This document shows positions 319-19,380 of a stretch of 22,561 bases of DNA, piece by piece. The stretch's first letter is position 1. Each line of letters begins with the position of its first letter. This DNA comes from a virus, in the IMG/VR virus record IMGVR_UViG_3300006947_000088, positions 1-22,561 of that record; one strand, given 5' to 3'. The position numbers and the translations under genes were made by a program. Under the pieces are notes generated by a model that was not told where the DNA came from, ran no database searches, and saw nothing but the letters and a program-made list of their open reading frames with translations.

Positions 319-1179
319 TTACCATAATGATTTCAACTCCTCAACATCGTTAGTATCTGCACTATTATTAAATAAACAAATCCTATGATCTGGTCTTAAT
401 TTTTTTTGTTCTATATCTGAGGGAAAAATGTTGCCTGTGTAATATGAATAAATGTCTCCTTTTGGAAATACATTAAAGAAATTTTCAGCAAGGTTATTGT
501 TAGTTTCATTCCACATATTATACCAAAAGTGATTGAGATAATTATCAATGGTAGGATATGTAAAAAATAAAACGTCTAAGTTCTTAACAATGTGCTTGTA
601 TATCTCTGTGAGTTGACCCCTATTCCATCGAATGACAGATGAATTTATAGGAGTTGATTGCATCGATGCATAATTCTTTCGACACTCATTCATGTCATTC
701 CACCAACCTCTAACAATCCACGGATGTTTCATTTCAAGAGTAAAAAAGTATGCTAAGTCTTGATGGATGATAACGTCAAGGTCAAGATATAGAAAATTAT
801 CTCCCTTTATAGATTTAAAATCTTTCTCTGAATGTTCAGCTCTGCTGGATTCATCCAATCCACCAACGGGATGCCAGCTGGCACCAGTGGGCATATTTTC
901 TTCCGCTTGAAATTCATTTTGGATAAGTTGAAACATGTAGAGTTTTCTATATGCCCACATGTTTGAAGGAGCTTGTTGATTACGAAATCGACTGTGCAGA
1001 CCTTCGTACTCATCCCAAGTTGTAGGAAGCAAAATATCATAATCTTTTTCTTTTTTGTCAGTGAGACAGTAAAAGTTGAAAGGGACTGAACAGTTATCTT
1101 CACACTGTTGCTTTAACTTTTCTACATATTCTCGGCTGTACTTATCGCCCCACTTGACGCATAATATTGTATTTTTCAT
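319..1179 (-). CDS. Glycosyltransferase with DxD motif
   Basis: This 286-residue protein looks like a small GT-A type glycosyltransferase, an enzyme class that moves a sugar from a nucleotide donor. It starts with a strand reading ILCVKWGDKYS. The metal/donor-binding DxD motif is at residues 133-135 in NFLYLDLDVII. A conserved-looking PINSSVIRWN lies at 177-186, and FPKGDIYSYYTGN near 238-250 matches the C-terminal part of this phage/bacterial family. No signal peptide or membrane segment is visible. No clear Shine-Dalgarno precedes the ATG at 1179, so translation may depend on coupling to the gene that ends 10 nt upstream. Residues about 88-122, just before the DxD strand, look like an insertion: the DNA there is much more GC-rich than its surroundings and holds a 12-bp palindrome. 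The acceptor is unknown; a virion protein or a host surface glycan are both possible. Confidence 0.75.
   Translation of the reverse strand: MKNTILCVKWGDKYSREYVEKLKQQCEDNCSVPFNFYCLTDKKEKDYDILLPTTWDEYEGLHSRFRNQQAPSNMWAYRKLYMFQLIQNEFQAEENMPTGASWHPVGGLDESSRAEHSEKDFKSIKGDNFLYLDLDVIIHQDLAYFFTLEMKHPWIVRGWWNDMNECRKNYASMQSTPINSSVIRWNRGQLTEIYKHIVKNLDVLFFTYPTIDNYLNHFWYNMWNETNNNLAENFFNVFPKGDIYSYYTGNIFPSDIEQKKLRPDHRICLFNNSADTNDVEELKSLW
872..883. repeat. 12-bp perfect palindrome inside glycosyltransferase gene
   Basis: The sequence tgccagctggca is identical to its reverse complement. It sits inside a GC-rich patch (33 of 57 bases G or C at 838-894) in an otherwise AT-rich gene, in the part coding for the apparent insertion before the DxD strand. 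Confidence 0.75.
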
Positions 1180-2798: not shown

Positions 2799-5009
2799 TT
2801 AAGTTACTCCCGGCGCAAATCCGGCAACTGAGTTTAATATATGCCCACCCGAATCACGAATTTCTATAACATTTTTTTGCATACCAGCATGAAGGAACGG
2901 CATGTTTTCCATATGAACATTACTACCAGCGTTAGTTGATGAACCATCTGTACCATCTAAGAGTATATTATCACCAGCATCAGTTCCGTCAGCAGCAGAT
3001 TGATTCATAACAATTAATACATCTCCACCCCTTCTTACCAAAGTTTGACCATCGCCATTTGGGCCGTTGTTGGCGCCGCCATCTGAAACCATCAAACCTT
3101 TATCAGGTCTATGGAAAAGATAAACTTCCTTATCAGCGCCAAAGTAAATAAAAGAACCATCAGATTTCAAACAAAAATCATCACCAACGGTAAGATCAAG
3201 AGAAATTCCAACACCACCAGCTACAGTTAATGCACCGTCTGTGGCAACTGTATTAGCAGTCGTTGCAGTTATAGCAACTACACCAGCAGAGGAGATTGTA
3301 ACAGCATTAAGATCACTAGCAGAACCGATTGACCCGCCGTCTTGGATTGTGATACTTGCATTAAATACAGGCCGGGCGCTAAAGGTAGCAATACCAGTAA
3401 CTAAAGCGGTTCCAGATATATCTACATTACCATTAATATCAATTAGGGTTGAGGTTAAGTCTATTTCATCGTCTGCAGCGATTGACAAATCACCGTCAGC
3501 AGTTGAACTAATGTGAATTGCAGTATCACGAAATATTATCTTTTTATTTGTAGCCATTGTTATGGCATCTGCTTGTGCAAGTGTACCACTAATCTCTACA
3601 TTACCATTGATATCAATAAGTGTAGAGTTAAGTTCTATCTCATCATCGGCATTAATGTCTAGATCACCATCAGCTGGAGAACCGATATTAATTGCAGCGT
3701 CACGAAACTGTACTACCATTGCAGCATTAAGTAATATCCCAGTATCGTGAACATGAGTTAAAGTTACATCTTTACCCGCACCAAAAGTTAATACAGCAGC
3801 GTCACTAAGTAAGAATAAGTCATCTCCAATAACAGCATCCAAGGCTACAGACAAACCACCATCAGTCTGCAATGAACCATCAGTTGTAGAAGTTGCAGCA
3901 GTAGTATCATCTGTTTTAATAATACCACTTGCAGTTACCGTACCAGTTACTGCTAGGGCCGAACCAGTAAAAGTTAAGTTTGCCTCACCGTTACCACTAT
4001 TAGAACCTGTAGCAGTAATAACACGGTTGTTACCGTCATTATTCAAAGATAAACCATCAGATTGATTAGCAAAAGCTAAGTTTCCATCACCATCAGTTGC
4101 AAGAAGTTGATTTGCAATACCATCAGCAACAGGCATTCTAAACTGAATACCACCAGCAGCTGGGGGAAGAAAAAGAGAACCTAAGAGGTTGTCACTTGTT
4201 GCAGACTGATAAGCAAATCTTGCGTTAACAGAAGACTCATCAACATTTTCTCTAGTCAAGAATACCAATGCATCTTCAGTTGATACTTCAAGGATTATAA
4301 ATTCTTCATAATCCTCAAATGTAGGATTGACAATATGATCATTTGTTCCTTCTTCATAAATAAGAGCTTCACCAATGTTAACGACCACACCTTCTACATC
4401 AGTTGCATCTCCGTCAAGAATGATTGCACTAGATGAATTTGCACCACTAGAATTAGTTCCATTAAGAAGAATAATATCATCAATATCTCTACCTATTAAT
4501 GCTATCGTTCCTGTCTTGTTTTGAACTGTTACTGTTCTATCAGCAGTAGGATCAGTGATTGAAAGGGTTGTTTGAAACTCATCTATTGTTGAACCCTCAA
4601 ATACAAAGTCTCCAGAAAATTGATTAAGAGGATTTATAAGATGATCCCCTGTTCCTATTTCATATAAAAGTGCCTCACCAACATCCACACCAACTGCGCT
4701 AGCATTAAGAATGATTGCACTAGACTCATCTGTACCACTTCCATCTGTTGCATTAAGAACAACAACATCGTTGATATCTCTACCCGTCAATGCTATTGTA
4801 CCAGACTTATCTTGCATTGTTACTGTTCTGTCAGTAGTAGGATCAATTATTACAAGGGTTGTTTGAAAATCATCAGCTGTAGTTCCCTCAAATACAATCT
4901 CTGCACCAAATTTCAATCCTTGAATATCTGATCTAAGAGTATTAAAAGATCGACGAAATGTATCTAATGAATCGCCAGTAGTTATTGAAGCTGCTGTAAT
5001 TGTTGCCAT
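2799..5009 (-). CDS. Repetitive tail-fibre-like virion protein
   Basis: This 736-residue protein is Ala/Thr/Asp/Gly-rich and strongly repetitive, like phage fibre shafts. Residues 36-134 and 135-229 are a diverged tandem duplication, each opening with FEG(T/S)T and DPT(T/A)DRTVT and passing through SGTIAL or TGTIAL. Residues 441-476 and 499-534 are a second repeat pair sharing ADGDL.I.ADDEI and STLIDINGNV. Residues about 681-699 (NILLDGTDGSSTNAGSNV) match the repeat found many times in the 1751-residue protein encoded at 14125-19380. The ATG overlaps the stop of the 75-residue gene as TAATG, suggesting reinitiation. These motifs are typical of fibre-like proteins of marine myoviruses. No receptor-binding or chaperone domain is recognisable, so it could be a fibre, a fibre-like baseplate decoration or another peripheral part. 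Confidence 0.7.
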   Translation of the reverse strand: MATITAASITTGDSLDTFRRSFNTLRSDIQGLKFGAEIVFEGTTADDFQTTLVIIDPTTDRTVTMQDKSGTIALTGRDINDVVVLNATDGSGTDESSAIILNASAVGVDVGEALLYEIGTGDHLINPLNQFSGDFVFEGSTIDEFQTTLSITDPTADRTVTVQNKTGTIALIGRDIDDIILLNGTNSSGANSSSAIILDGDATDVEGVVVNIGEALIYEEGTNDHIVNPTFEDYEEFIILEVSTEDALVFLTRENVDESSVNARFAYQSATSDNLLGSLFLPPAAGGIQFRMPVADGIANQLLATDGDGNLAFANQSDGLSLNNDGNNRVITATGSNSGNGEANLTFTGSALAVTGTVTASGIIKTDDTTAATSTTDGSLQTDGGLSVALDAVIGDDLFLLSDAAVLTFGAGKDVTLTHVHDTGILLNAAMVVQFRDAAINIGSPADGDLDINADDEIELNSTLIDINGNVEISGTLAQADAITMATNKKIIFRDTAIHISSTADGDLSIAADDEIDLTSTLIDINGNVDISGTALVTGIATFSARPVFNASITIQDGGSIGSASDLNAVTISSAGVVAITATTANTVATDGALTVAGGVGISLDLTVGDDFCLKSDGSFIYFGADKEVYLFHRPDKGLMVSDGGANNGPNGDGQTLVRRGGDVLIVMNQSAADGTDAGDNILLDGTDGSSTNAGSNVHMENMPFLHAGMQKNVIEIRDSGGHILNSVAGFAPGVT
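3408..3515 (-). repeat. Intragenic beta repeat, copy 2 (IDINGNVDISGT type)
   Basis: Encodes residues 499-534 of the fibre-like protein. It shares ADGDLSIAADDEIDL and STLIDINGNVDISGT with the copy at 3582-3689, with matching DNA as well as protein. This unit is common in fibre-like proteins of marine phages. Confidence 0.8.
3582..3689 (-). repeat. Intragenic beta repeat, copy 1 (IDINGNVEISGT type)
   Basis: Encodes residues 441-476 of the fibre-like protein (ADGDLDINADDEIEL, STLIDINGNVEISGT). It pairs with 3408-3515 with a spacing of 58 residues from one copy start to the next, consistent with a recurring shaft element. Confidence 0.8.
4323..4904 (-). repeat. Tandem duplication of about 97 codons in fibre-like gene
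   Basis: Residues 36-134 and 135-229 align end to end. Each copy has FEG.T.D.FQTTL, DPT.DRTVT, a GTIAL.GRDI segment, an SSAIIL segment, GEAL.YE, and finally GT.DH..NP. The copies are diverged at the DNA level, so this is an old internal duplication. Confidence 0.8.
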
Positions 5010-5237: not shown

Positions 5238-8200
5238 TTATGTCGCCAACGCTAATGCTCTAAAGTCTTTGATTCTTGGTGGTTCAGAAGAGTTAGTCGA
5301 TTGCATGACAATTTTAATTGAGAACGCAATAAAATCATCTAGTGCATCACCAACACCATCATCTGTAACACCGGCAGTAAATAGATACTCTTGAAAATCA
5401 TCACGCCCCAAGGATGGGTTAGTGACAGAATCGGGAGAACCATCACCATTAAAGTATTTCCAATTTAATTCATCAAAGTCACTAGCATCGTCTGACCTCA
5501 AGATTTTAAACATAACTTTAATTTCTGAAGATGTATCTCTGTTCGCACTAAAGAACACTTTCAACGCTGTCGCTGACTGGGCCAATGAAGCTTTTCTTGT
5601 GCAGTATATCGCAACATTATTATCACCAACTGATTCAGTTGAATCTCTATATTCATCAGTTGGAAAAACATCAGAAGCAGAGTCAATATTATTAATTCTA
5701 TTTGAAACAGCAAGGCCTGTCATTCTCTGTGTATCAATAACAGGAGATAGATTTTCTTGAAAACTTGATAGGCTACAAGTTAATGATAATGATTTTTGAC
5801 CAGCAAGTTCATTTGTCTCGTTAATTGCAGAAGCAATCATATATGGAGAATCATAATACACATTTTCATTTAATGGTATTGGAGTTGCGTTTGAAACAGT
5901 ATCTTTAATAAATGATGCTTGAACACCAGATGCACTTGTTGCAGATGTCCCTTGTTTGACTGTTAAAATAGATGTACCTGTAAGTTGCATGTTTGATATA
6001 TTCATCTGTGCAAGGTCATACAACATATTTTCTGATGCATAAGCATCATCACCGCCGTTCTGAGCTCGTGTTATACCAGTACCATCAATAACGGCGTTAG
6101 TAGCTACCGTAATCGTGTAACTATCAATATTAATATTACTGATTGATGTAAACGTTTTATTAGCAGCAATATTATCAGCATCTGTAACGTAGTGATTGAT
6201 TTCTGTGAATGGTATTTTATGTAACTGATATAATTCTACAGGAGAACCAGCAGCATGATTTGCTCCAGATTCACCAGCCTGGTTACTACCAAATCCTCTT
6301 GTTGCACTACTAATTGTATTACTACTTATGGAAGAATATTGTATTATCTCGTTATTGATTCTTATCATCCAGTTGTTAGATGCGTCCCTAGAATATTTAC
6401 CAGCAGTATCATTAAAATTTGTACCGTCAGCAAGGACAATAGTTGTCGTTGTATCATCAATCGCATTTGCCAAGGTTGTTGTAGCACCAGACTTAATATC
6501 CATAAACCTAACATTATTATTAGTTGTGTTCATATTATGGTTTGGATGTAGAACTTGGATAACATTACTTCCATCTTGGAAAATCATAGGATTGATTGGT
6601 AGTCTAACTGAAGACTCGTTACCACCCGACAACCCAGTAGAAATACCTGACCTTTCGGGAACTGGTAGTTGATCATTTACAAGAGGCACCGTTCCTGAAA
6701 GTGCAGTAAACGAACACCTATTCATTTTAAATTTAATATCTTCCATAAGAGAAGGAGCCCAAGTTCTATTATTATGAGACTTAAACATAACCCCAACATC
6801 TGGTTGTTTAGAAACTGTCCTCTCTGCAAACAATGCATTAGACGTTGAGGTTGCTGTACCACCAACACCAGCAGCAGCCAATGTAGATTGAATTTCTGTT
6901 TCACCCATTCGAGCAATCCAAATCTTATGAGTTGGTACTTGTGCAAGCAAACAGAAACAATATTCTAAACCCGACTGTAAATAAACAGGGCTATTAAATT
7001 TAAAGTTGGTTGCTTTTTGTCCAGTTTCATCAATCGAAATATTTGCAGGGTCTTTTACAACCCGACCAAACGGCATAATTTTTGGGCCAGGATAACCGTT
7101 GACTACATTTCTCAACTCTAGTGTTACAGGGAATACCTCATCCTTTTCAGAAAAGAATATATCTATACTTGAAACAAACGCTCCTCCAGACTCTTCTATT
7201 AAAAAAGTCTGTGCTAACGGATCATCATCGTCCTCACCACCATTACCATCATCATCATCCTGCGCCTGCGGCACAGGCGGTGGAGGTGGAATAAATGAGG
7301 TAGATTGACTAATAACATCAGAGAAAATTGATGTTGAAGAATTTGTATTAGATTTACTCAATTCTGCATTTCTTGTTGCAATAATAGTTTCTTGTTCAGT
7401 TTCTAAAATACCTGTGGCATGGTAGATTGTTTGTCCTGCTGTAATAGGGTCTGTAGATGTGATATTTGTTGGACTTGCAGTAAGTCGAAATGAAATCTCA
7501 CCAGTTTTAAATTTAAGGTTTCCTGTCACTTTAGGATCAGGAAGACTGAATACTCCTTTAACTCTACCAGATGGGCCGGTTATTAAAGCATCACCAAAAA
7601 TTAAACTTGAATCAGATGTTGAGAACCCCTCTAGTGGTTTTGTTAAGGAAGAAACATCTACTTTATCAAAGAAAGGATATAGTTGTGTATTTGGTAAGAA
7701 ACTATTTCCTTCAAAATTTATTATTTTAGGTCTACAAAACGGCAGCATGGCCCTTGCAATAACTTTAGTTCCTTGTGATTCAAGGTCAATTTTTTCAATA
7801 ACATCAGTTTTAATACCAGTTCTACTCTGATCTGTTCTTACTGTACTAACTGTTCGTGATGTTAAGTTATTACCACTCCACCAAGAACTACTTGATGAAG
7901 CTGTTGTTCCAGACCATTGAGTTTGCCAAGCATTCCACACCGTTCCTATTGAATCTTTATTATCTTCATAAAAAGTATCAAAGTTACCCTCTACATTAAC
8001 AATTAAATCGGGAGCAACCTCTGTTTCAAACCAATCATCACTTTGTGGGTCAAGAGAAACATGTCCTTCCCAATTAGATAAAAGAACAGGAGTAACTCTT
8101 TCAACTCTAGTTGCAAATGGTTGATCAAGTAAAGTAACTTCTTTGTAAGGTAAAGTTATAAGATCACCAGTTTTTTGATAACCAAAATTAGCACGTTCTG

Positions 8201-11200
8201 TATCAGAAGTAGATTGTTCTACTATAGAAAATGATTTAGTCTTGGAAGCTGGCCGCAATTCATTATTTTCCATATCAATAGAACACTGATAGTCTTGGTG
8301 TTTAACATCACCAAGACGATGACCTTGGAAAGCATCAACCACAAATCCAGATTTAAATCTATTTAATCCATTAGCATCAGTAACTTCAAAACTCTCTGCA
8401 TCACGTTCTAATAAAGATAAGTGTGTATAATATTCTAAATTTCCAATACGATCTTGAAGCTTACCAATATCCTTCATAGTGAAACGTTGATTTTTTTCTC
8501 TTCGTATAACGACATCTCTAGGAGTAAATGTAAATGGTGGAATAAATAGTTCTGCCAATTTCATTGTCGAAGCTCGAGCCTCTGGAATTTGAGGATTTTC
8601 AGAAGAATCACCTTCAGTTATAGTAATATTACCACCAATATCAATATCAATTATTGCTCTTTTACCTAAGTAATATTCATAGTCTGCCTGTACCAAAGAA
8701 CCTGGCTTGAGGAAGTTATTTGCAGAAGCGCCAGTCCCATCATATTGTCGATGGAAGAAATCAAATGAATATCCAGTTATTGCATCAACTGTTTCAACAA
8801 CAGCTGTTGCCCCCACAGCATCTTCTACACTAGGTCTAAAATCAAAAGTGTTATATAGTTTATAAAACCCAGTAGGAGCAGGAGCTTCAGGATCAACTTT
8901 TGTAGCACTATATTGTGGAATATCAACATAGTCCATTTGATTTGCAACGTCACTATATGAATCAACGGTTAGAACATCACCAGCACTATGTTCAAGATAA
9001 TCAAATACAATTAATAATCGACCAGTAGGAGCTGGCAAACCGCTTCTTCTCTCAATACGAGAAATATCATAGTAATTGTCTCGTTGGCCAGTGTCTAATT
9101 GATAGTTGGAAGTTATAACAGAATCACCCTCAGTGACACTACCAACTGTCGAAGTTGCACCAGAAGATTCAGCAGTAATTACCTCATTTACTGAAAATCT
9201 TTTAGATGAACCAGAAGTATATACTAACTGTACTGGAGATGTTGTAGTAATAATTCTTGCTGTGGCATTAGTTGATGCACCAGTAATCTTTTCACCTCTA
9301 GTGAAAGTACCTGTTGTTGTACCTAAAGATATTGTTGGTGTATTTGCATCAGTACCAGAAGCTCCAGATTCAAATACTGCCATCAACCTAAACACATCAC
9401 TTCGTCCCAAAGAAATTTGTCTGTCCGTTGGTCTAGTTCCAAATGCAGCAGTTGCGCCTGGAATGACCTTAACTTGTTTCATTAGTTTTGTTGTTTTGGT
9501 TTTTTGAACAACTGAACTCTTAGAGAGAGTTGTCATAATTTTAAGTTTAGCACCAGTACCAAATACAATAGGATTGGTAATCGTAAGAGTTCCCGTTCCA
9601 GCGCCGGAGAATCCACTAGAAGCACTAACAACATCTCCAGATTTAGAAGAACCAGAACCAGCAATTAGAACTGAAATTGTATAGTCGGTTTCACTATGAG
9701 AAAGAAATGTTTCATTTGTACCAGCTGAAACTGTTACCGCACCAGAAGAATTTGTGTTCACAATAAACTGTCGGCGAATTGTAAGTTGTGTATCACTTTC
9801 TCCGCCATTTGATGCAGTTAATAAAGTTTTTACTGGACGTTTCGCAAGTCTAAAGAGAGAAATATTTTTTTCTGCATCTTCTAACTTACAAATAAACTTG
9901 AGAGAACCAGTACCACCAGATGCAGCTGTTTGCAACGCAATCGGATCACCTTCCACCTCTGTTAGAATATTATCTCCATTGTTTAATCCAACATCAGTTG
10001 TTCCATCTAAGTCTAAGAAGGAAGAAGCAGTAGCAACGGCGGTGAGTGCAATATCAGCAGTGAAGTCTTGACCAGCATCAGCGTCATCACAAACAACAGA
10101 CCGAACTTGGTCAAAAGATTTTGATTGAAAGGAAAGAATGGTTAAATCAGCATTACCAGAATTTTCTACTAAACCACCCGCTTCAGCAGAGTTAGATGAA
10201 ATAATTTTTTCACCGACTTGAAAAATTCCGTTAACGTTTGTGAGAACAAGATCAGCGCCTGAAGTTTCTTCACCAAATATAAGACCAGTTGCACCACTAT
10301 TGCTTCCTGTAACAAGTTGTCCGCCATTTGCGGCGATAGATAGTAATGTTGGACTTGGTGTTCCAGATAAAGTTATTCTAACAAACGGACGAACATCAAA
10401 AACAAAAAGTTTGTAAATAGCATCAGCTTGGCCAGGAGTACCAGAAAGATGTTGATAAGTCCGAACCCTTGCAACACCAATTTTTGTTCCAGTGGCAGTG
10501 CCACGGGCTGAGGTTGCAGTGTCATGTAAAGATAGTTGTTTGAATGGGGTTGACTCACCAGAAATAAATGATACATCTGGAGTTCCAAACAAATTATTTA
10601 CGGTTACAAAGTTACCAACATCAAACGCTGTATTACTAGAATTAACCGTATTAAATTCTCTAGACTTCTTTAAATCAATTACAGTAGGTGCAATTTTTTC
10701 AATCTCAAAACCCTTAACATATGCCTTACCAGAAGAAATTTGTAATGCAAGAAGTGATTCAGAAGCAATACCATTACTATCTGTTATTGTTCCAGACTTA
10801 TATACACCCTTATAATCTACAGGGCCAACACTAGCATCAATAGATTCTTTAACTTGGAATGTAAATGGCCTTACAGTATAGTTACCAGATTCATCAAATG
10901 TTCTACGAGCAAGTGTCTCTTCAAGGATAGAGTACTCTGTATTCCTTGCATGTCTTATTATTCTACCACCCTTAATCCTCAACAACTCAATGAAATTTTT
11001 ATCGTCTGTTGCAGAAGTTACAATAGATATAAGAGTTAGAGTAAACTTTAGTCGGTGTGCGCCTTTAGCTGCAAAGTTAGATGATCCAGTTGCATTATCT
11101 AATAGAGATGTATCAAGTTCTGGTGTTATAATTGACTCATCAACTCTCAGTCCAATTTTTACATTCAGTCCGAACCCACCTCTATATTTGTCAAGAATAA

Positions 11201-11930
11201 TATTTTGGTCAGCAACATTAACAAAATGACCTCTAACAAAATATACACCAGCCGAAATTGAAGCCATGCATGCTTTTCCAGCGACAGCTCCAGTACTTCC
11301 GTCTACAACTGTATTTATATCATCTGTTTCTAAAATTACAGTTGTTATAGAAGCTGCGTCTGCAGCAAACGTTGTTGAACCATGAGTTATTGCAACATTT
11401 GCACTAATATTTTCATTAATAACAAACTTGTCAAATCCACTAGCGTCTAGAGGGCCTTGTGATTGTAGACTATCAAGAGCTTCAAACGTATTCTCTACGG
11501 TTTTTGTTCCAGCAAGCTTGGATGAAATATAACTACCGAAAAGTGTCACAGGATCAGTTGATGTCGCAGCAGTCGAAGCAGTAACCATAAATTTAATGCC
11601 ACTGGTTGCCCCTGTAATAATAACAGGATTTTCAACATTAACATATTGAGTATGGTCAACCGATTCACCACCAAAAGAACTCTGAAGTCTAACGTATCTT
11701 GCGGCGTCTTTTCGACCTTGATAATTTGATGCGCCGGGAATAACCACTGTTCCATCTTTGAACATGTGACTGAACCCCTGTTCAATTTGATTCTGAAGGG
11801 TTGATTGAAGTTGTGTTAATTCTCTTGCCTGGATAGCAAATCCAGGCCGAAATAACGTCCTAACAAAATTATCATCTTTGTCGAAATCATCATAATATGG
11901 CGCAACGTTAAGGTCTGTATTTTGAGGCAT
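5238..11930 (-). CDS. Giant baseplate/tail structural protein with DUF4815-type N-terminus
   Basis: This 2230-residue protein opens with LNVAPYYDDFDKDDNFVRTL, then RPGFAIQARELTQLQSTLQNQ, the hallmark of the DUF4815-type N-terminus of large structural proteins in marine T4-like phages. The middle has several FxxGExIxxxxSxAxA modules (about 565-600, 873-892, 912-932). A conserved-looking segment at about 1160-1210 includes IGNLEYYTHLSLLERDAESF. A Pro5 run (1548-1552) and an acidic D/E stretch (1558-1570) form a linker, followed by DPLAQTF, a conserved start of a C-terminal domain. Near 2060, LSPVIDTQRMTGLAVSNRIN is another family motif. Its position after gp8 matches where T4 encodes its peripheral wedge proteins (gp9/gp10), but I see no direct homology to those. 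GGAG lies 9 nt before the ATG, inside the end of gp8. Confidence 0.75.
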   Translation of the reverse strand: MPQNTDLNVAPYYDDFDKDDNFVRTLFRPGFAIQARELTQLQSTLQNQIEQGFSHMFKDGTVVIPGASNYQGRKDAARYVRLQSSFGGESVDHTQYVNVENPVIITGATSGIKFMVTASTAATSTDPVTLFGSYISSKLAGTKTVENTFEALDSLQSQGPLDASGFDKFVINENISANVAITHGSTTFAADAASITTVILETDDINTVVDGSTGAVAGKACMASISAGVYFVRGHFVNVADQNIILDKYRGGFGLNVKIGLRVDESIITPELDTSLLDNATGSSNFAAKGAHRLKFTLTLISIVTSATDDKNFIELLRIKGGRIIRHARNTEYSILEETLARRTFDESGNYTVRPFTFQVKESIDASVGPVDYKGVYKSGTITDSNGIASESLLALQISSGKAYVKGFEIEKIAPTVIDLKKSREFNTVNSSNTAFDVGNFVTVNNLFGTPDVSFISGESTPFKQLSLHDTATSARGTATGTKIGVARVRTYQHLSGTPGQADAIYKLFVFDVRPFVRITLSGTPSPTLLSIAANGGQLVTGSNSGATGLIFGEETSGADLVLTNVNGIFQVGEKIISSNSAEAGGLVENSGNADLTILSFQSKSFDQVRSVVCDDADAGQDFTADIALTAVATASSFLDLDGTTDVGLNNGDNILTEVEGDPIALQTAASGGTGSLKFICKLEDAEKNISLFRLAKRPVKTLLTASNGGESDTQLTIRRQFIVNTNSSGAVTVSAGTNETFLSHSETDYTISVLIAGSGSSKSGDVVSASSGFSGAGTGTLTITNPIVFGTGAKLKIMTTLSKSSVVQKTKTTKLMKQVKVIPGATAAFGTRPTDRQISLGRSDVFRLMAVFESGASGTDANTPTISLGTTTGTFTRGEKITGASTNATARIITTTSPVQLVYTSGSSKRFSVNEVITAESSGATSTVGSVTEGDSVITSNYQLDTGQRDNYYDISRIERRSGLPAPTGRLLIVFDYLEHSAGDVLTVDSYSDVANQMDYVDIPQYSATKVDPEAPAPTGFYKLYNTFDFRPSVEDAVGATAVVETVDAITGYSFDFFHRQYDGTGASANNFLKPGSLVQADYEYYLGKRAIIDIDIGGNITITEGDSSENPQIPEARASTMKLAELFIPPFTFTPRDVVIRREKNQRFTMKDIGKLQDRIGNLEYYTHLSLLERDAESFEVTDANGLNRFKSGFVVDAFQGHRLGDVKHQDYQCSIDMENNELRPASKTKSFSIVEQSTSDTERANFGYQKTGDLITLPYKEVTLLDQPFATRVERVTPVLLSNWEGHVSLDPQSDDWFETEVAPDLIVNVEGNFDTFYEDNKDSIGTVWNAWQTQWSGTTASSSSSWWSGNNLTSRTVSTVRTDQSRTGIKTDVIEKIDLESQGTKVIARAMLPFCRPKIINFEGNSFLPNTQLYPFFDKVDVSSLTKPLEGFSTSDSSLIFGDALITGPSGRVKGVFSLPDPKVTGNLKFKTGEISFRLTASPTNITSTDPITAGQTIYHATGILETEQETIIATRNAELSKSNTNSSTSIFSDVISQSTSFIPPPPPVPQAQDDDDGNGGEDDDDPLAQTFLIEESGGAFVSSIDIFFSEKDEVFPVTLELRNVVNGYPGPKIMPFGRVVKDPANISIDETGQKATNFKFNSPVYLQSGLEYCFCLLAQVPTHKIWIARMGETEIQSTLAAAGVGGTATSTSNALFAERTVSKQPDVGVMFKSHNNRTWAPSLMEDIKFKMNRCSFTALSGTVPLVNDQLPVPERSGISTGLSGGNESSVRLPINPMIFQDGSNVIQVLHPNHNMNTTNNNVRFMDIKSGATTTLANAIDDTTTTIVLADGTNFNDTAGKYSRDASNNWMIRINNEIIQYSSISSNTISSATRGFGSNQAGESGANHAAGSPVELYQLHKIPFTEINHYVTDADNIAANKTFTSISNINIDSYTITVATNAVIDGTGITRAQNGGDDAYASENMLYDLAQMNISNMQLTGTSILTVKQGTSATSASGVQASFIKDTVSNATPIPLNENVYYDSPYMIASAINETNELAGQKSLSLTCSLSSFQENLSPVIDTQRMTGLAVSNRINNIDSASDVFPTDEYRDSTESVGDNNVAIYCTRKASLAQSATALKVFFSANRDTSSEIKVMFKILRSDDASDFDELNWKYFNGDGSPDSVTNPSLGRDDFQEYLFTAGVTDDGVGDALDDFIAFSIKIVMQSTNSSEPPRIKDFRALALAT

Positions 11931-11933
11931 TTA

Positions 11934-13430
11934 TTAAAACTCCACGATTACTTTAATATCTTCTATTTGATCTGAAGACCTACTAATTGGTTTTCTATTT
12001 TCTATGTATATAATATCACCACTATCTGCCGCCATTTCTGGGTTTGCATAACCATCTGAAAAAGTTAACGTATTACCACCAGCAAGAGTTACAGCGGTGT
12101 CTGCTGCTGCATCTGGTGTTCCAGTTGCAGAAGTTGTAGCACCTGTGATTACGTTAGCACCACTAAAGGCAACTTTTCCACCATTTGTTGAACTTGTTCC
12201 AAAATTACCAAATCTCTCTTGTGTGTAATAAAGAATTGAATTATCACTATCCCACTCAACAACCTTACCAACTGCACCTGTGGTAGCCTGAGTAATTGTC
12301 TCATCTCCATCAAAAGTACCAGATTGTGATGTGGTTTTTATTGCATAAGTAAGTCTTGCAGTCGAAATTGTTGCAACTGAAGTTGTACCAAATGTGTGTG
12401 GGTCAACAATAATTCCTAACTTACGGAAATCGTTTTCTGTACTGATATCATCACCTTCTGCAGCGGTTAATGTTGTTGCCAACATTACATAATGACCCCC
12501 AAGTTCTGATGGTGCATTAAAACCATGTCCACCCTTTGGACTAGCTACAATATTAACAGCACCACCCGAACCACCAATATTAGAAGCTGTAGATAATGTC
12601 ACATCAGAGAAAGTAAATCCAGCTGCAAGATTTACTGTTCCAAATGTGTAACCAGCACCGGCTGAATAAATTGTTGTATTTGTTCCGGCGGTAAGACCAA
12701 AGGATTGAATTGCACCACTAGCAACCACAATACTAACAATTGCGCCTGAAGAAGTTCCTTGACTTGTCCCGTCACCATATACTGCTGCATAGTAAGTACC
12801 GTTTGTATATCCCGAACCAGATGTAGTAATAAGAGCGTCGATAGAACCATCTACTGCAGCTGTACTAACTACTGAATCTGTTGCAACTGGCATGAAGTCT
12901 GATGTTAGGAAGTTATTAATCTGTCCTGCTGTTAAAGTATACATATACTGTAAAACATATCCGCCAGAAGCGAAAGGAGAGGTTGTGGTACTTGTTGGTT
13001 CTGTTCCACTAAATGCTGCTCCACTATTGTTAGAAAGAACTTTATATATACGAAAATCTGAAGTTAAGAAATAAAATTTAGAATCATATAAGTTTGAAGA
13101 ACCAGAGCTTGCGGTTATAGTTGAACTATAGTCTGGACGATACATATCGTATATCGTACCATTAGCCCAATTTCTTCTAGGGAGAACTCTCTGAATTGAA
13201 GCAGCACCGATATTCTTGGCAGCAATCATATCGTCCCATGCATAAAATTCATCAGCTGGTCCATCAGATGGAGTGGGAGGTGAAGCGTCAGACCCACCAC
13301 TCGTTCCAGATGTGAATGGAGTACTCTTACCTATGAAAAGGTAATATACATTATTAGAAGATTCACTGAAAGACTCTTCAAACTGAGTAGCGTTGTGAAG
13401 TCTAAATTTTTCTGTGATAATAGCTGCCAT
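11934..13430 (-). CDS. gp8: Baseplate wedge protein gp8
   Basis: This 498-residue protein fits the enlarged gp8 of marine T4-like phages (T4 gp8 is about 334 residues). Family features are the opening IITEKFRLHNATQFEESF, the YDMYRPDYS segment at 94-102, KGGHGFNAPSELGGHYVM at 299-316, NDFRKLGIIVDP at 333-344, and the C-terminal IYIENRKPISRSSDQIEDIK at 474-493. In T4, gp8 joins gp6, gp7 and gp10 in the baseplate wedge. Here it lies between the 211-residue fibre-like gene and the giant DUF4815-type gene. The extra length is in Ser/Gly/Thr-rich stretches near 40-55 and 190-290, and a GDETITQATTGAVGKVVEW module (375-393) resembles repeats in its large neighbours. AGGA is 7 nt before the ATG, and a CATAAATA box just upstream may be a late promoter. 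Confidence 0.88.
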   Translation of the reverse strand: MAAIITEKFRLHNATQFEESFSESSNNVYYLFIGKSTPFTSGTSGGSDASPPTPSDGPADEFYAWDDMIAAKNIGAASIQRVLPRRNWANGTIYDMYRPDYSSTITASSGSSNLYDSKFYFLTSDFRIYKVLSNNSGAAFSGTEPTSTTTSPFASGGYVLQYMYTLTAGQINNFLTSDFMPVATDSVVSTAAVDGSIDALITTSGSGYTNGTYYAAVYGDGTSQGTSSGAIVSIVVASGAIQSFGLTAGTNTTIYSAGAGYTFGTVNLAAGFTFSDVTLSTASNIGGSGGAVNIVASPKGGHGFNAPSELGGHYVMLATTLTAAEGDDISTENDFRKLGIIVDPHTFGTTSVATISTARLTYAIKTTSQSGTFDGDETITQATTGAVGKVVEWDSDNSILYYTQERFGNFGTSSTNGGKVAFSGANVITGATTSATGTPDAAADTAVTLAGGNTLTFSDGYANPEMAADSGDIIYIENRKPISRSSDQIEDIKVIVEF

Positions 13431-14124: not shown

Positions 14125-17100
14125 TTACGCAGCATCAAAAGTTATACTTGTTGAATCAAAGCTTCCAGCATTACTATCAAAACTATTGGCTTGAATTGCA
14201 CCATCATCAGCACTTGATTCATCTGCACTCAATTGCAACCCGCCGGCTTCGGCAAAAAGATTATTCGCACTATTTATTGAGTTCTGTTGTAAAAATGTAA
14301 ATGTTCCTTCACCTATTGCATTTTTTTCTACCAATAATTCAAAACCAGCGTTCGTTCCATCACTATCAGTACCATCCAATAAGAAGAATCCGCCTTCATT
14401 ATCGGGTACAAGATTATAAACATTATCGAACATAACAATTTTATCACTAAGGTCACGGCCGCCACTACTGTCTAGTATTATATTATCACCAACATCTGTA
14501 TTAGCAGCTGACCTATCCATTATTAGGAAATTACCTTCATCAGTTCTTGACGAATCCGTTCCTTCTAATACAATATTTTGACCAATATCAAGAAGTGCTG
14601 ACGTACCATCAAATAAGATAACTCCACTATCGTCTTCTAATCTAAAGTTTAATCCATTTTCATATTCATCTTGTAAAGACAATCTATCTGTTGCAGATTT
14701 AGAATTAATTTCAGCAGCTCTTGTAAACGGTACTATATTTCTATTACCAAAGTTACCTTCTGGAATACTTCCTTGGTTAGTAGTGTCCTCAAACTCAATC
14801 AAACTTCCTTCGGTAACAAGTTTCTTACCCGTATTAATGTTAGTGCCGTCTAATACGATATTAATATTATGAGATGGATATCCATTACCAACACCAATCA
14901 TATATCCAGTATCAGTTGAAGATTCTAACTCAATAAAGTCTCCATCCTCTGTAATAAATTGTAACCATGTCTCCAACACAAAGTCATCAGAACCAGCAGA
15001 ACTCTGTTCAAATACAATAGCACCCTCAGTTGTTTTTAGTGTTCCAGCTGGTTCAGTGAACCCTACAGTATCTATTTCAACTAAATCTGAAAATGACAAA
15101 CCATTCAACTCACTGAGTGGAATACCACTATTAGCGTTAAGGTCTATTTCATAAGAAATTTTATCTCCATTGTCAGTACCACCTTTATCTGTTCCATCAA
15201 GAACAAGATTATCTTGCATGATGACAGGAATACTTTCTCTTAATCCATCTTCTAACTGAACAGTTGGTGAATCAAAGAAACCAGAACCGGGCAAAATACC
15301 AGAAGCAAGAGGAGCGCCATATCCAGTATTAGGAATAATAATTTGTGGAGTAATCTTTAATGTTGTTAAATGTGTAACAGATCGTTTTCCACTTTCATTC
15401 TCACCTAGTGCTGTCTCTGCAAGTAATCTACCTCCTCCATCATTCAAAAGAATAGTACCATCACCAGAACTTTGTGAGTTTTCAACTGCAATATCTAATC
15501 CACTTTCAAACTGTAGATTATCACCGTCAGTTTCTTCAAGAAGCAAATCACCAATTGCTACGCCATTCTCAAAAATGATTGTATCAAATAAACTACTTCC
15601 CCCCGTAGGATCAAGAACGCCTGGGCCGTCACGAACAGATGTAGTTTGAACTAGAACTTCATCAAATACTATATTAAATAGTGATGCAAGGGTTGGCGAG
15701 AAAGTATCATCTCCAGTATAATCCACAACACCTACAGCAGTAGGAACACCAACCGCAGCAGAAACTTGTGATGCAAGGGAAACTTTACCGAATGGAATAA
15801 AACCAGCAGGGTGAACAGAAGCTTTAAGTTCGTTAATATAATCAGATAGAACAGCACCAACCTTAACTTCATATGAAAACTGTTGGTAGAAATAGGAATC
15901 CTGTATACGAATAATGTCTTCACTAATAAGACTATCTGTATTTAAGTACGAACCTGTTTTGTTTATAGTTGTACCAATTGATGCTACACCTTTAACAGTT
16001 CCTTGTGCTACAATCTTAGCAGAAGCTCCACTAGAATCTAGTATGGTATTACCAACAACATTAAAATCGTCTTCCATAACAATTTCATCACCGATATCAG
16101 TTCCATTGGCCTGTGTTTGGTTAAGGATAATTTGATCTGTACCAACTTCATCTTCTATTAATATTTGACTACCAGCGTCTTCACCTGATAAATCTGTACC
16201 ATCAAGAATTAAATTAATACTAGCGTTTTCATTCAGTACCCTATCACCAGCTTCGTCAATTATATTTCCATAACCATCTTCATCACCAAGGTATATTGCA
16301 TTATTATATAAAATACGGCCTTTATCTAGAACACCTACATCAAGTTTATTAACGGGGGAATCTTCAGTAACAAAAGTCTCTAGTCCTTCTCCTAATAACC
16401 TACTATGTGGAGTATTACTATGTTTTATTGATTGTCCATGATTAGAAAATTCTGAAACATCAAAAACAGTTTGTAAGAGTTTATCTCCACTGCTGAAAGT
16501 TCTGAAACCAACAGGTGCTTCTGTCGCATTAAGGATTATAGTATTACCAGCGTCCTCACTAGTAATATAACTAGGAGAACCTTGGTTACCGTTAATTGAA
16601 TCTTCCGATAAAATAGCATCAGTATTATTACCAAATATAATATTTGAAAAACGTTGATACTCAATCTTATCTCCATCTTCCAAAGATGTTCCATCAAATA
16701 TAAGTTTATCACCTTCATTTTCAGTAGAAGTTTCCAATTCAACATTATCTAAATCAAATTCACCCCCCTCTAATCTAATATTATCATTAATATCTTTGGG
16801 AGTAAAATTAAATATTAAAACTCCTGTTAGTTGTTCACCGAATATATTTTTACCAACAGTATCATCCTCAAGAACAATATGGTCTTCAATACGCTGGTTT
16901 ATGGGCGGTAAAAAACCATCTAATAAAAATTTACCAGACTCATCAGCTACAATAAAACTACCTGATTCTAATTCTATGCCTTCATCAAGTAGAGAGTCTG
17001 TATCATCAATTTCCATATTGATTTGATAAACATCAACTTCACTTGCATTTTGTATTATTTCTTCATAAGATGAATTTTCAATTGCAATTCCTTCACCCTC

Positions 17101-19380
17101 TTCTGAAAATCCATCTATTAATATTCCTTGATTTGCATCATCTAAAGGTCTAAAGATTTCGTTGATAGGACCAAGATCAGAACGGCCGGGGCCAACAATA
17201 TCATAATCTTCAAGTTCAATACCTTCGTTTACAATTGAAGAATTTTCACCTGTAAGTCGGTTTGTGGGAGTGGAACTAATTGTAAGTTTATTTGTACTGC
17301 TATCAAATGAAACTACTGATCCAGTATGAGTCTGTAATGTATTTCCAGTTCCAAACGACCCAAAAACATCCTTCAAAATTAAATTTGTATTTGCAGTTGC
17401 AGTTGGTGGTGTTGAATATTTAAACCCAGAGTCAATTATTTCAATCTCTGTAACGGCTCCAATATCAGTTGTTAAACAAATCAACTTGGCGTTTATTCCA
17501 TTTACAGATGAAACTGTAGCAGTAGGTAGTTTACTATACCCGCCTCCAGAACCGGCCAAGAAAATTCTATTGATACTACCAGAATCATTATCACCAACAG
17601 TTTCATCCTCAAGAATAATACCGTCTGTTTCAGTACCATAAGAATCTCTTGTTAATACATCAATTTCAGATATAAGTAAATCACCCAACTCAGCTTCAGT
17701 ATTACTATTTGTTGCGACATCCATTCCAGTGGCAACGTTGTTGGACTCTTGTCGTAAGGAAAACCCACTATCCAATGTTTTTGTACTTGAGTGAAACAAA
17801 TTATATAATGAATTATCATAAGTTGATTTAGCAGTATTAATATTATTCGATGGCATATAAAATATGGTGTCAGGAATTTGGTCAAAAATGAAAGCAGTAA
17901 CTTGTCCATCAAGGAGGTTTTTAGTAGATGCTCTTTTTTCTGTTAGGTATAGTGGATAGTAATATGTTTGTGTATCACTATATGTTCTAGCTGTACCAAA
18001 TACTACATATGGTTCACCTGTTACAGTTGCAAGAGCAGTACCATTTAATAATATATTACTTGATACTAATGATTCGTTTGTTCCTGTCTCTATAACAAGA
18101 ACACCAGACGTTTCATCAGCTGCATATTCAACTGATAACCTACCGCCAGTAACAGAAACAAAAGCTCTTGCACTATTAATAGAGGTGTCATCAGAATCAT
18201 TTGTAAATTTAATTGCATCTCCAATATTAAATCCAGTTCCAACATCATCAATAATAACATCACTAATTGACCCCGTTGAAACTTGACTAATATTTGCGGT
18301 AGAAGCACCATTACCAATTTGTGGGTCTAACGTTATTGTATCCCCATTATTATACAGAATGCCACCAAAATCACCAGTTGTTACGGACAACACAATACCT
18401 TGAATAGTAAACTGCATAGAGTAATCATTAGTTGGAGAATAACCTGTAATAGTTTCAGATGGGGAAAATCCAGTACCAAGAACACTATCTCTTCTAAGAG
18501 TAAATTCTACAATAGAATCCGAGCCTTGATTGAACTGTGATACCGCAATAATCTGAGCAGTTGTTCCAGAAGATGCGCCAGTCACCTGTTGGCCAGCCAT
18601 CTCAGATGGAGTTGCTCCTTGAGAATCAGAAGTACATCGAATTGCTAGAGGATTTGCCCATTTACCGTCACTCAACCTCATCATATATTTTGCTGGGTAA
18701 TTTATAGTTGCTTCTTCACCCAAAAATATTCTAAAGAAAAGTTTATGTCCTTCGGAAGTTCCCTTAGCTGCATACAAATCTCTAATGTGTTTTATAAGAT
18801 TTCTCTTGGATACTCCACTTGCAAGAGACAGAGGGATAGAGTTCATAAAGGAGTCTTTAAAAGCTGAAAGGAAATGGTCAACAGTATTATCTGGATTTGC
18901 GTATTCTAATAACTGTTGAATATTTTGTACAGGGTTTGCACGATATTTTTTAAGGGTAGTAGTAGCATTACTAGTTCCCCCTGTAATAGTTTCACCCTCA
19001 ATAAACTTTTGGTTAGCAGTAATAAACAACTGTTCATCATCATCCACTAATATTGTGGCAGTAGCCTTACTTGTCACTCCCGTAATAGTTTCACCAATAT
19101 CAAATTTACCAGTGGTTCCGCTACCACTTTCAAAAACAATTCTATCTGCTCCATTTGAACCAGATATGTCAGTAGCATCTAAAACTAAATAATTGTCTGA
19201 TAATGTTTCTAATAAAACTTGGTCTATAGTACCGTCAATAGTTATCTGAGCAGATTCAAGAAACTTATAATATTGTTTAAGAAACTCAACAAATATTGGA
19301 TGGTCAGATTGAATATAATCAGGAACCTGTCCATCTATAAGGGGAGATATCTTTGTATTAAATTCACTATCAAAAGGCAT
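14125..19380 (-). CDS. Giant baseplate structural protein with LDGTD repeats
   Basis: This 1751-residue protein follows gp6 directly (2-nt gap), as in marine T4-like phages where a large structural protein sits there. Its N-terminus has ISPLIDGQVPDYIQSDHPIF and VEFLKQYYKFLES (11-43), then a helical part with ISGV-like SLASGVSKRNLIKHIRDLYA (185-204), which I associate with baseplate proteins of this group. Two GETITG modules lie at 93-144. About eleven units of the LDGTD..GTD.GD.I..E type are spread through the chain, clustered at 1057-1104 and 1392-1686. A distinctive IIRIQDSYFYQQFSYEV at 1156-1172 with HPAGFIPFGK at 1190-1199 is a conserved late domain. The overall composition is very acidic. 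It could be the positional counterpart of T4 gp7, but sequence homology is not evident to me. Confidence 0.72.
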   Translation of the reverse strand: MPFDSEFNTKISPLIDGQVPDYIQSDHPIFVEFLKQYYKFLESAQITIDGTIDQVLLETLSDNYLVLDATDISGSNGADRIVFESGSGTTGKFDIGETITGVTSKATATILVDDDEQLFITANQKFIEGETITGGTSNATTTLKKYRANPVQNIQQLLEYANPDNTVDHFLSAFKDSFMNSIPLSLASGVSKRNLIKHIRDLYAAKGTSEGHKLFFRIFLGEEATINYPAKYMMRLSDGKWANPLAIRCTSDSQGATPSEMAGQQVTGASSGTTAQIIAVSQFNQGSDSIVEFTLRRDSVLGTGFSPSETITGYSPTNDYSMQFTIQGIVLSVTTGDFGGILYNNGDTITLDPQIGNGASTANISQVSTGSISDVIIDDVGTGFNIGDAIKFTNDSDDTSINSARAFVSVTGGRLSVEYAADETSGVLVIETGTNESLVSSNILLNGTALATVTGEPYVVFGTARTYSDTQTYYYPLYLTEKRASTKNLLDGQVTAFIFDQIPDTIFYMPSNNINTAKSTYDNSLYNLFHSSTKTLDSGFSLRQESNNVATGMDVATNSNTEAELGDLLISEIDVLTRDSYGTETDGIILEDETVGDNDSGSINRIFLAGSGGGYSKLPTATVSSVNGINAKLICLTTDIGAVTEIEIIDSGFKYSTPPTATANTNLILKDVFGSFGTGNTLQTHTGSVVSFDSSTNKLTISSTPTNRLTGENSSIVNEGIELEDYDIVGPGRSDLGPINEIFRPLDDANQGILIDGFSEEGEGIAIENSSYEEIIQNASEVDVYQINMEIDDTDSLLDEGIELESGSFIVADESGKFLLDGFLPPINQRIEDHIVLEDDTVGKNIFGEQLTGVLIFNFTPKDINDNIRLEGGEFDLDNVELETSTENEGDKLIFDGTSLEDGDKIEYQRFSNIIFGNNTDAILSEDSINGNQGSPSYITSEDAGNTIILNATEAPVGFRTFSSGDKLLQTVFDVSEFSNHGQSIKHSNTPHSRLLGEGLETFVTEDSPVNKLDVGVLDKGRILYNNAIYLGDEDGYGNIIDEAGDRVLNENASINLILDGTDLSGEDAGSQILIEDEVGTDQIILNQTQANGTDIGDEIVMEDDFNVVGNTILDSSGASAKIVAQGTVKGVASIGTTINKTGSYLNTDSLISEDIIRIQDSYFYQQFSYEVKVGAVLSDYINELKASVHPAGFIPFGKVSLASQVSAAVGVPTAVGVVDYTGDDTFSPTLASLFNIVFDEVLVQTTSVRDGPGVLDPTGGSSLFDTIIFENGVAIGDLLLEETDGDNLQFESGLDIAVENSQSSGDGTILLNDGGGRLLAETALGENESGKRSVTHLTTLKITPQIIIPNTGYGAPLASGILPGSGFFDSPTVQLEDGLRESIPVIMQDNLVLDGTDKGGTDNGDKISYEIDLNANSGIPLSELNGLSFSDLVEIDTVGFTEPAGTLKTTEGAIVFEQSSAGSDDFVLETWLQFITEDGDFIELESSTDTGYMIGVGNGYPSHNINIVLDGTNINTGKKLVTEGSLIEFEDTTNQGSIPEGNFGNRNIVPFTRAAEINSKSATDRLSLQDEYENGLNFRLEDDSGVILFDGTSALLDIGQNIVLEGTDSSRTDEGNFLIMDRSAANTDVGDNIILDSSGGRDLSDKIVMFDNVYNLVPDNEGGFFLLDGTDSDGTNAGFELLVEKNAIGEGTFTFLQQNSINSANNLFAEAGGLQLSADESSADDGAIQANSFDSNAGSFDSTSITFDAA

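Follow-up and report, generated by a model that had tools for sequence, protein, structure and literature searches.

Phage virion proteins are known to share domains (PMC10684548), and two described baseplates are among the systems closest to the locus reported here. In that of phage T4, the platform for gp6 is built jointly from gp7 and gp8 (PMC3004832), and in the hub protein of phage JBD30 a small six-stranded barrel, domain VI, contacts domain VII and stabilizes the baseplate (PMC11445458). In the literature searches made we have found no report of the particular module described below, and a paper dealing with the A-1(L) tail contains nothing on this domain.

The DNA that was analysed (referred to below as the window) is the whole of a virus record of 22,561 bases. 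The closest cultured relatives found were Methylophilales phage Melnitz and the Pelagibacter phages HTVC008M and Mosig (Kyanoviridae), and the source virus is a marine T4-like phage. The genes on the minus strand follow in the order PAAR protein, gp25, gp6, gp7-like protein (1751 aa), gp9/10 N-like protein, gp8, VrlC/DUF4815 protein and fibre-like protein, with the PAAR and gp25 assignments based upon inspection by eye and synteny with the genomes of the relatives. The genes of this cluster that carry the module are as follows.

14125..19380, minus strand: gp7-like baseplate wedge protein, 1751 aa (PF23786), carrying copies a and b
11934..13430, minus strand: gp8 baseplate wedge protein, 498 aa (PF09215)
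5238..11930, minus strand: VrlC/DUF4815 protein, 2230 aa (PF16075, phrog_358)

The gp7-like protein matched PF23786 (4.7e-10) and belongs to the T4 gp7 wedge family, as it has a helical wedge core followed by a barrel, comparable to T4 gp7 644-855. The gp8 protein scored 68.1 bits against PF09215 (cut-off 25) and matched the structure 1n7z with a Z of 19.6, placing it in the T4 gp8 family, and the VrlC protein, at 198 bits against PF16075 (cut-off 30), is a member of DUF4815. The fibre-like protein (2799-5009) contains internal repeats, e.g., DINGNVEISGTL / DINGNVDISGTA, together with two GTIAL.GRDI units, and it matched families of baseplate wedge initiators weakly; an ORF of 286 aa (319-1179) that follows downstream of the fibre-like genes is glycosyltransferase-like by eye (DLDVII motif). 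Within the gp7-like protein, about ten diverged units of the form LDGTD..GTD.GD.I..E are found in residues ~420-1751 (14125-18120) and 66-88, three of them by a strict pattern and the remainder by eye. The very acidic stretch containing these units has a net charge of -160 over 1331 residues, and one unit immediately precedes the module copy gp7a listed below.

The earlier note on this DNA had drawn attention to positions 18949-19104, which on the minus strand encode residues 93-144 of the gp7-like protein, and had described two adjacent units there (residues 93-143). Both of the quoted strings are present, and together they make up a single module of ~57 aa. The natural unit is the pair, consisting of two half-units of the form F..GE.ITG.TSgAtA.V linked by a strand. 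The copies identified in the window are listed here.

18943..19119, minus strand: copy gp7a, residues 88-146 of the gp7-like protein (half-unit 1, 93-110; half-unit 2, 126-143)
18391..18597, minus strand: copy gp7b, residues 262-330 of the gp7-like protein (structural counterpart, T4 gp7 764-842)
17215..17319, minus strand: weak, degenerate partial copy, residues 688-722 of the gp7-like protein (profile search)
12105..12323, minus strand: gp8 copy, residues 370-442 (inserted ahead of the C-terminal hairpin, in comparison with T4 gp8)
11436..11633, minus strand: weak partial copy near the N-terminus of VrlC, residues ~100-165 (HHalign)
10149..10331, minus strand: copy VrlC1, residues 534-594 (profile search and HHalign)
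9129..9329, minus strand: copy VrlC2, residues 868-934 (profile search and HHalign)

The full copy gp7b had been overlooked previously. The gp8 unit reported at residues 375-393 was recovered by a profile search from the gp7-like pair and belongs to the larger 370-442 copy, which also includes a second half at residues 422-438. The units reported in VrlC were likewise linked by profile, but the one placed at 565-600 is the second half of the copy spanning ~534-594. The gp7-like proteins of Melnitz and Mosig contain clear copies at a place comparable to that of the weak 688-722 copy in the window. The weak copy near the VrlC N-terminus gave HHalign values of 57.7% with gp7a and 90.8% with VrlC2, covering about 15-21 columns only.

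The relatedness of these copies was examined by several means. A relaxed form of the motif gave five matches in the proteins of the window as compared with a mean of 0.07 (maximum 1) in 500 shuffles. In a jackhmmer search seeded with the gp7-like pair alone, gp7-like homologues were recruited first, with the VrlC proteins of Melnitz (1.9e-4) and Mosig (6e-4) appearing in round 1, the 2230-aa VrlC protein of the window (9.8e-10) and gp8 of P-HM2 (3e-4) in round 2, and gp8 of the window (1e-8) in round 4; no reversed decoys were included. Significant matches thus link all three proteins, and a lack of such matches, which the earlier note had named as a refutation, was not observed. When non-iterated profiles built separately for each slot (56 to 83 sequences each) were compared by HHalign, gp7 88-146 aligned with VrlC 868-934 at a probability of 98.5%, VrlC 534-594 at 96.4%, gp7 262-330 at 95.4% and gp8 370-442 at 94.8%, and the scores of module pairs were 40-69 versus at most 19.8 for 52 background tiles from the same proteins. 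The gp7a, gp7b, gp8, VrlC1 and VrlC2 profiles are thus similar to each other above both decoys and background. In the collected loci, 416 of the 2225 ORFs carry the module and none of the reversed ORFs does so. At the level of sequence profiles, common ancestry of the module copies is demonstrated by these results.

In regard to the fold, the predicted strands are at residues 98-101, 107-113, 117-120, and then 131-134 and 140-147 for gp7a; at 265-268, 274-285, 288-295, and then 310-314 and 321-330 for gp7b; and at 378-381, 386-394, 399-403, and then 428-430 and 436-439 for gp8. The order of predicted strands is identical in these three copies, which are the ones that were modelled. The model of gp8 is of good quality (mean pLDDT 90); that of the gp7-like protein is poor overall (pTM 0.32) and the placement of domains was therefore not read from it. 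Both the gp8 module and gp7b matched domain 3 of EF-Tu over the same residues (2c78 313-404 and 314-405, respectively), the former with a Z of 4-5, which it also showed with domain 3 of aIF2-gamma, and the latter with a Z of 6.5 (range 6-7). As the two independent models agree and the position of gp7b is collinear with that of its counterpart in T4 gp7 (discussed below), the module, in the gp8 and gp7b models, is likely a small beta-barrel resembling domain 3 of EF-Tu/eIF2-gamma; similarity of Z 4-7 to EF-Tu-like barrels can possibly reflect just a common barrel arrangement. The barrel may be closed in every copy. The profiles, the predicted strands and the structural matches common to the copies support the earlier suggestion of one small beta module in three different baseplate proteins. 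The gp8 module also matched chain b of the JBD30 structure 8rk3 at residues 494-559 (Z 5.5, 1.9 A over 63 residues), a range that probably corresponds to domain VI. A search of PDB sequences with the module profile gave a best E of 0.2. A match of residues 74-155 to an endosialidase was treated as due to chance, because the motif residues are not kept in the alignment.

The module profile was also searched against the genomes of HTVC008M, Melnitz, Mosig, P-HM2, P-SSM2, S-PM2, T4, T7, P-SSP7, HTVC010P and phage K. The first six, all belonging to the Kyanoviridae, contained 4-7 matches each, and no matches were found in T4, T7, P-SSP7, HTVC010P or phage K. Those matches that were looked up in the six Kyanoviridae genomes were in gp7-like, gp8, VrlC, gp14 and tail fibre genes, except for a weak P-SSM2 match (E 0.005), which fell in a hypothetical gene belonging to the same cluster. 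The gp14 gene lies outside the 22.5 kb window, and its copies are located in the genomes of relatives.

L030 108-1436, L031 624-1502 and L032 23659-25071: gp14 neck protein of P-HM2, S-PM2 and P-SSM2, with the module near its C-terminal part

In tblastn searches, a gp14 copy retrieved 461 phage records with E values up to 0.1, nearly all of them marine T4-like, together with five Salinibacter phages and one Ochrobactrum phage; the gp7a stretch reached only Melnitz and HTVC008M, and a Mosig copy only itself. The module is conserved in phages of Synechococcus, Prochlorococcus, Pelagibacter and Methylophilales.

The sites at which the module is found differ in their occupancy. The gp7a slot, which follows the first helices and precedes the wedge core, contains the module in the phage of the window, HTVC008M, Melnitz and Mosig, and in P-HM2 it contains a different module (TTIDV...FPD..EIIYY..RG), which is related to a module of VrlC (HHalign 83%, score 30.5 versus at most 12.0 in 50 shuffles). 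This second shared module is located in the window at 6291-6524 (VrlC 1803-1880; TTTIVLADGTNF...INNEIIQYSSI..TISSATRGF), and it is absent in about 34 of the 83 VrlC relatives, including HTVC008M and Mosig. The VrlC2 slot (VrlC 862-938) holds the module in 69 of 83 sequences and 1-17 residues instead in the other 14; it is empty in HTVC008M and Mosig and filled in Melnitz and P-HM2. Since this copy can be lost, at least that one is dispensable. In the relatives sampled, both the gp8 slot and the gp7a slot are occupied, and the motif residues are conserved.

In a nearest-neighbour test, 310 of the 311 distinct copies from five slots were closest to a copy from the same slot of another phage. This result speaks against recent shuffling from gene to gene and indicates that the spread between genes is old, the slots having been inherited vertically with loss and replacement. 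The intragenomic shuffling proposed in the earlier note therefore holds as an old process, as the same slot is empty, filled, or occupied by another module in different phages, but not as a recent one.

We propose that the motif forms the core of a small beta-barrel of ~57 residues made of two similar half-units. In each of these, ETITG would form a short strand and TATILV a long one, and a third strand would lie between. The barrel would occupy loops in conserved scaffold proteins of the virion. In the gp7-like protein it would follow the first helices and precede the wedge core, in gp8 it would precede the last hairpin, and there would be two or three sites in VrlC/DUF4815, one towards the end of gp14, and others in tail fibres. 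The copies other than gp7b may have been inserted early in the marine T4-like (Kyanoviridae) lineage, and would subsequently have passed down within their own slots, some being lost or swapped. As a compact knob, the barrel would enlarge the wedge proteins and make additional contacts with an adjacent domain or subunit. We consider it reasonably probable that the module is an ancient, slot-inherited plug-in barrel of virion proteins that serves as a structural contact knob, and the most likely role for it is that of a structural contact or spacer domain. Given the gp7/gp8 platform for gp6 in T4, two or more of the carriers are expected to lie next to each other.

Among the alternatives, some chance must be allowed that the module is a surface adhesion decoration, e.g., a glycan-binding one similar to the Ig-like or OB domains of phage tails, through which the host or particles would be weakly contacted. 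On phage tails, small barrels that have binding roles are known, the distal tail protein of JBD30 has two domains named oligosaccharide-binding (PMC11445458), T5-type tail proteins appear low in the list of structural matches, and copies are present in fibre genes. However, the slots are vertically inherited, and a structural contact role is favoured over host binding because the neck protein gp14 also carries the module and because it is shared by phages of very different hosts, the surfaces of which differ from Synechococcus to Methylophilales. A selfish or neutral passenger, i.e., an easily inserted fold with close termini, spread by recombination and having little function, is a rather improbable reading of the module; the presence or absence of the module in the VrlC slot and its replacement in the gp7 slot would fit this proposal, but the conserved motif residues of the filled gp8 and gp7a slots and the persistence of the copies in their own slots argue against it. 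Lastly, convergence of turn-rich, G/T/S-rich beta sequence is very improbable. The motif is short and the carrier proteins have a high content of G, S and T, but the shuffles, reversed decoys and background tiles described above rule out such an effect of composition.

A further, doubtful proposal is that the barrels in gp7, gp8, VrlC, the fibres and gp14 constitute a common docking element, touching each other or a common partner. If the docking proposal is true, the barrels would knit the large marine T4-like baseplate and neck into a lattice that is absent from T4. The greater length of gp8 in ocean T4-like phages than in T4 is partly explained by the module, as is that of some gp7-like, VrlC and gp14 proteins. 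It provides annotators with a recurrent domain that has so far been uncurated, and the slots that are present, absent or swapped in close relatives offer a clean test of the effect of an inserted domain in a baseplate.

In comparison with T4, the domain at ~764-842 of gp7 (PDB 5iv5, 5hx2) is similar to gp7b and collinear with it, being located after the conserved helical wedge core. The two superimpose with a Z of 8.3 and 2.9 A over 79 residues; the sequence link between them is not significant and the correspondence is based upon structure. Over a longer range, residues 10..339 of the gp7-like protein matched T4 gp7 644..855 with a Z of 10.0, the rmsd of 25.6 over the whole range reflecting a different placement of the domains. 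T4 gp7 seems to be without the module in the gp7a slot, as judged from inspection of the T4 sequence and from the structural match, which covers a shorter range in T4. The gp8 proteins of T4 and the window can be aligned over their full length, except that the segment preceding the final SGdiiYiENR hairpin is missing from the former, and T4 has no counterpart of the gp8 copy. Hence, gp7b is shared with T4 gp7, whereas the other copies look like plug-in insertions. The JBD30 baseplate hub gp53 (PDB 8rk3) is similar in that a small barrel is present within a baseplate protein, but that barrel occurs in a single copy in a siphophage hub, with 6% identity over the match and no sequence link. The resemblance of the gp8 module and gp7b to domain 3 of EF-Tu/eIF2-gamma involves at most 16% identity and no functional link. 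In regard to curated families, the gp7-like carrier belongs with PF23786 (Baseplate_wedge) and the TIGR02242 wedge core; the PF23786 model spans copy gp7a inside a longer domain and marks no separate repeated domain. The module has no curated Pfam family to itself, since 15 copies gave only scattered weak Pfam matches, limited to 1-2 members each; the scan of NCBIfam covered whole proteins only. The nearest likeness is to the promiscuous virion domains, such as the Ig-like ones, and to domain mosaicism (PMC10684548), where a small domain is common to otherwise unrelated virion proteins; the present module differs from the Ig-like domains in having another fold and in occupying slots that are old and vertically inherited, and it is a new and well-supported case of a promiscuous virion domain.
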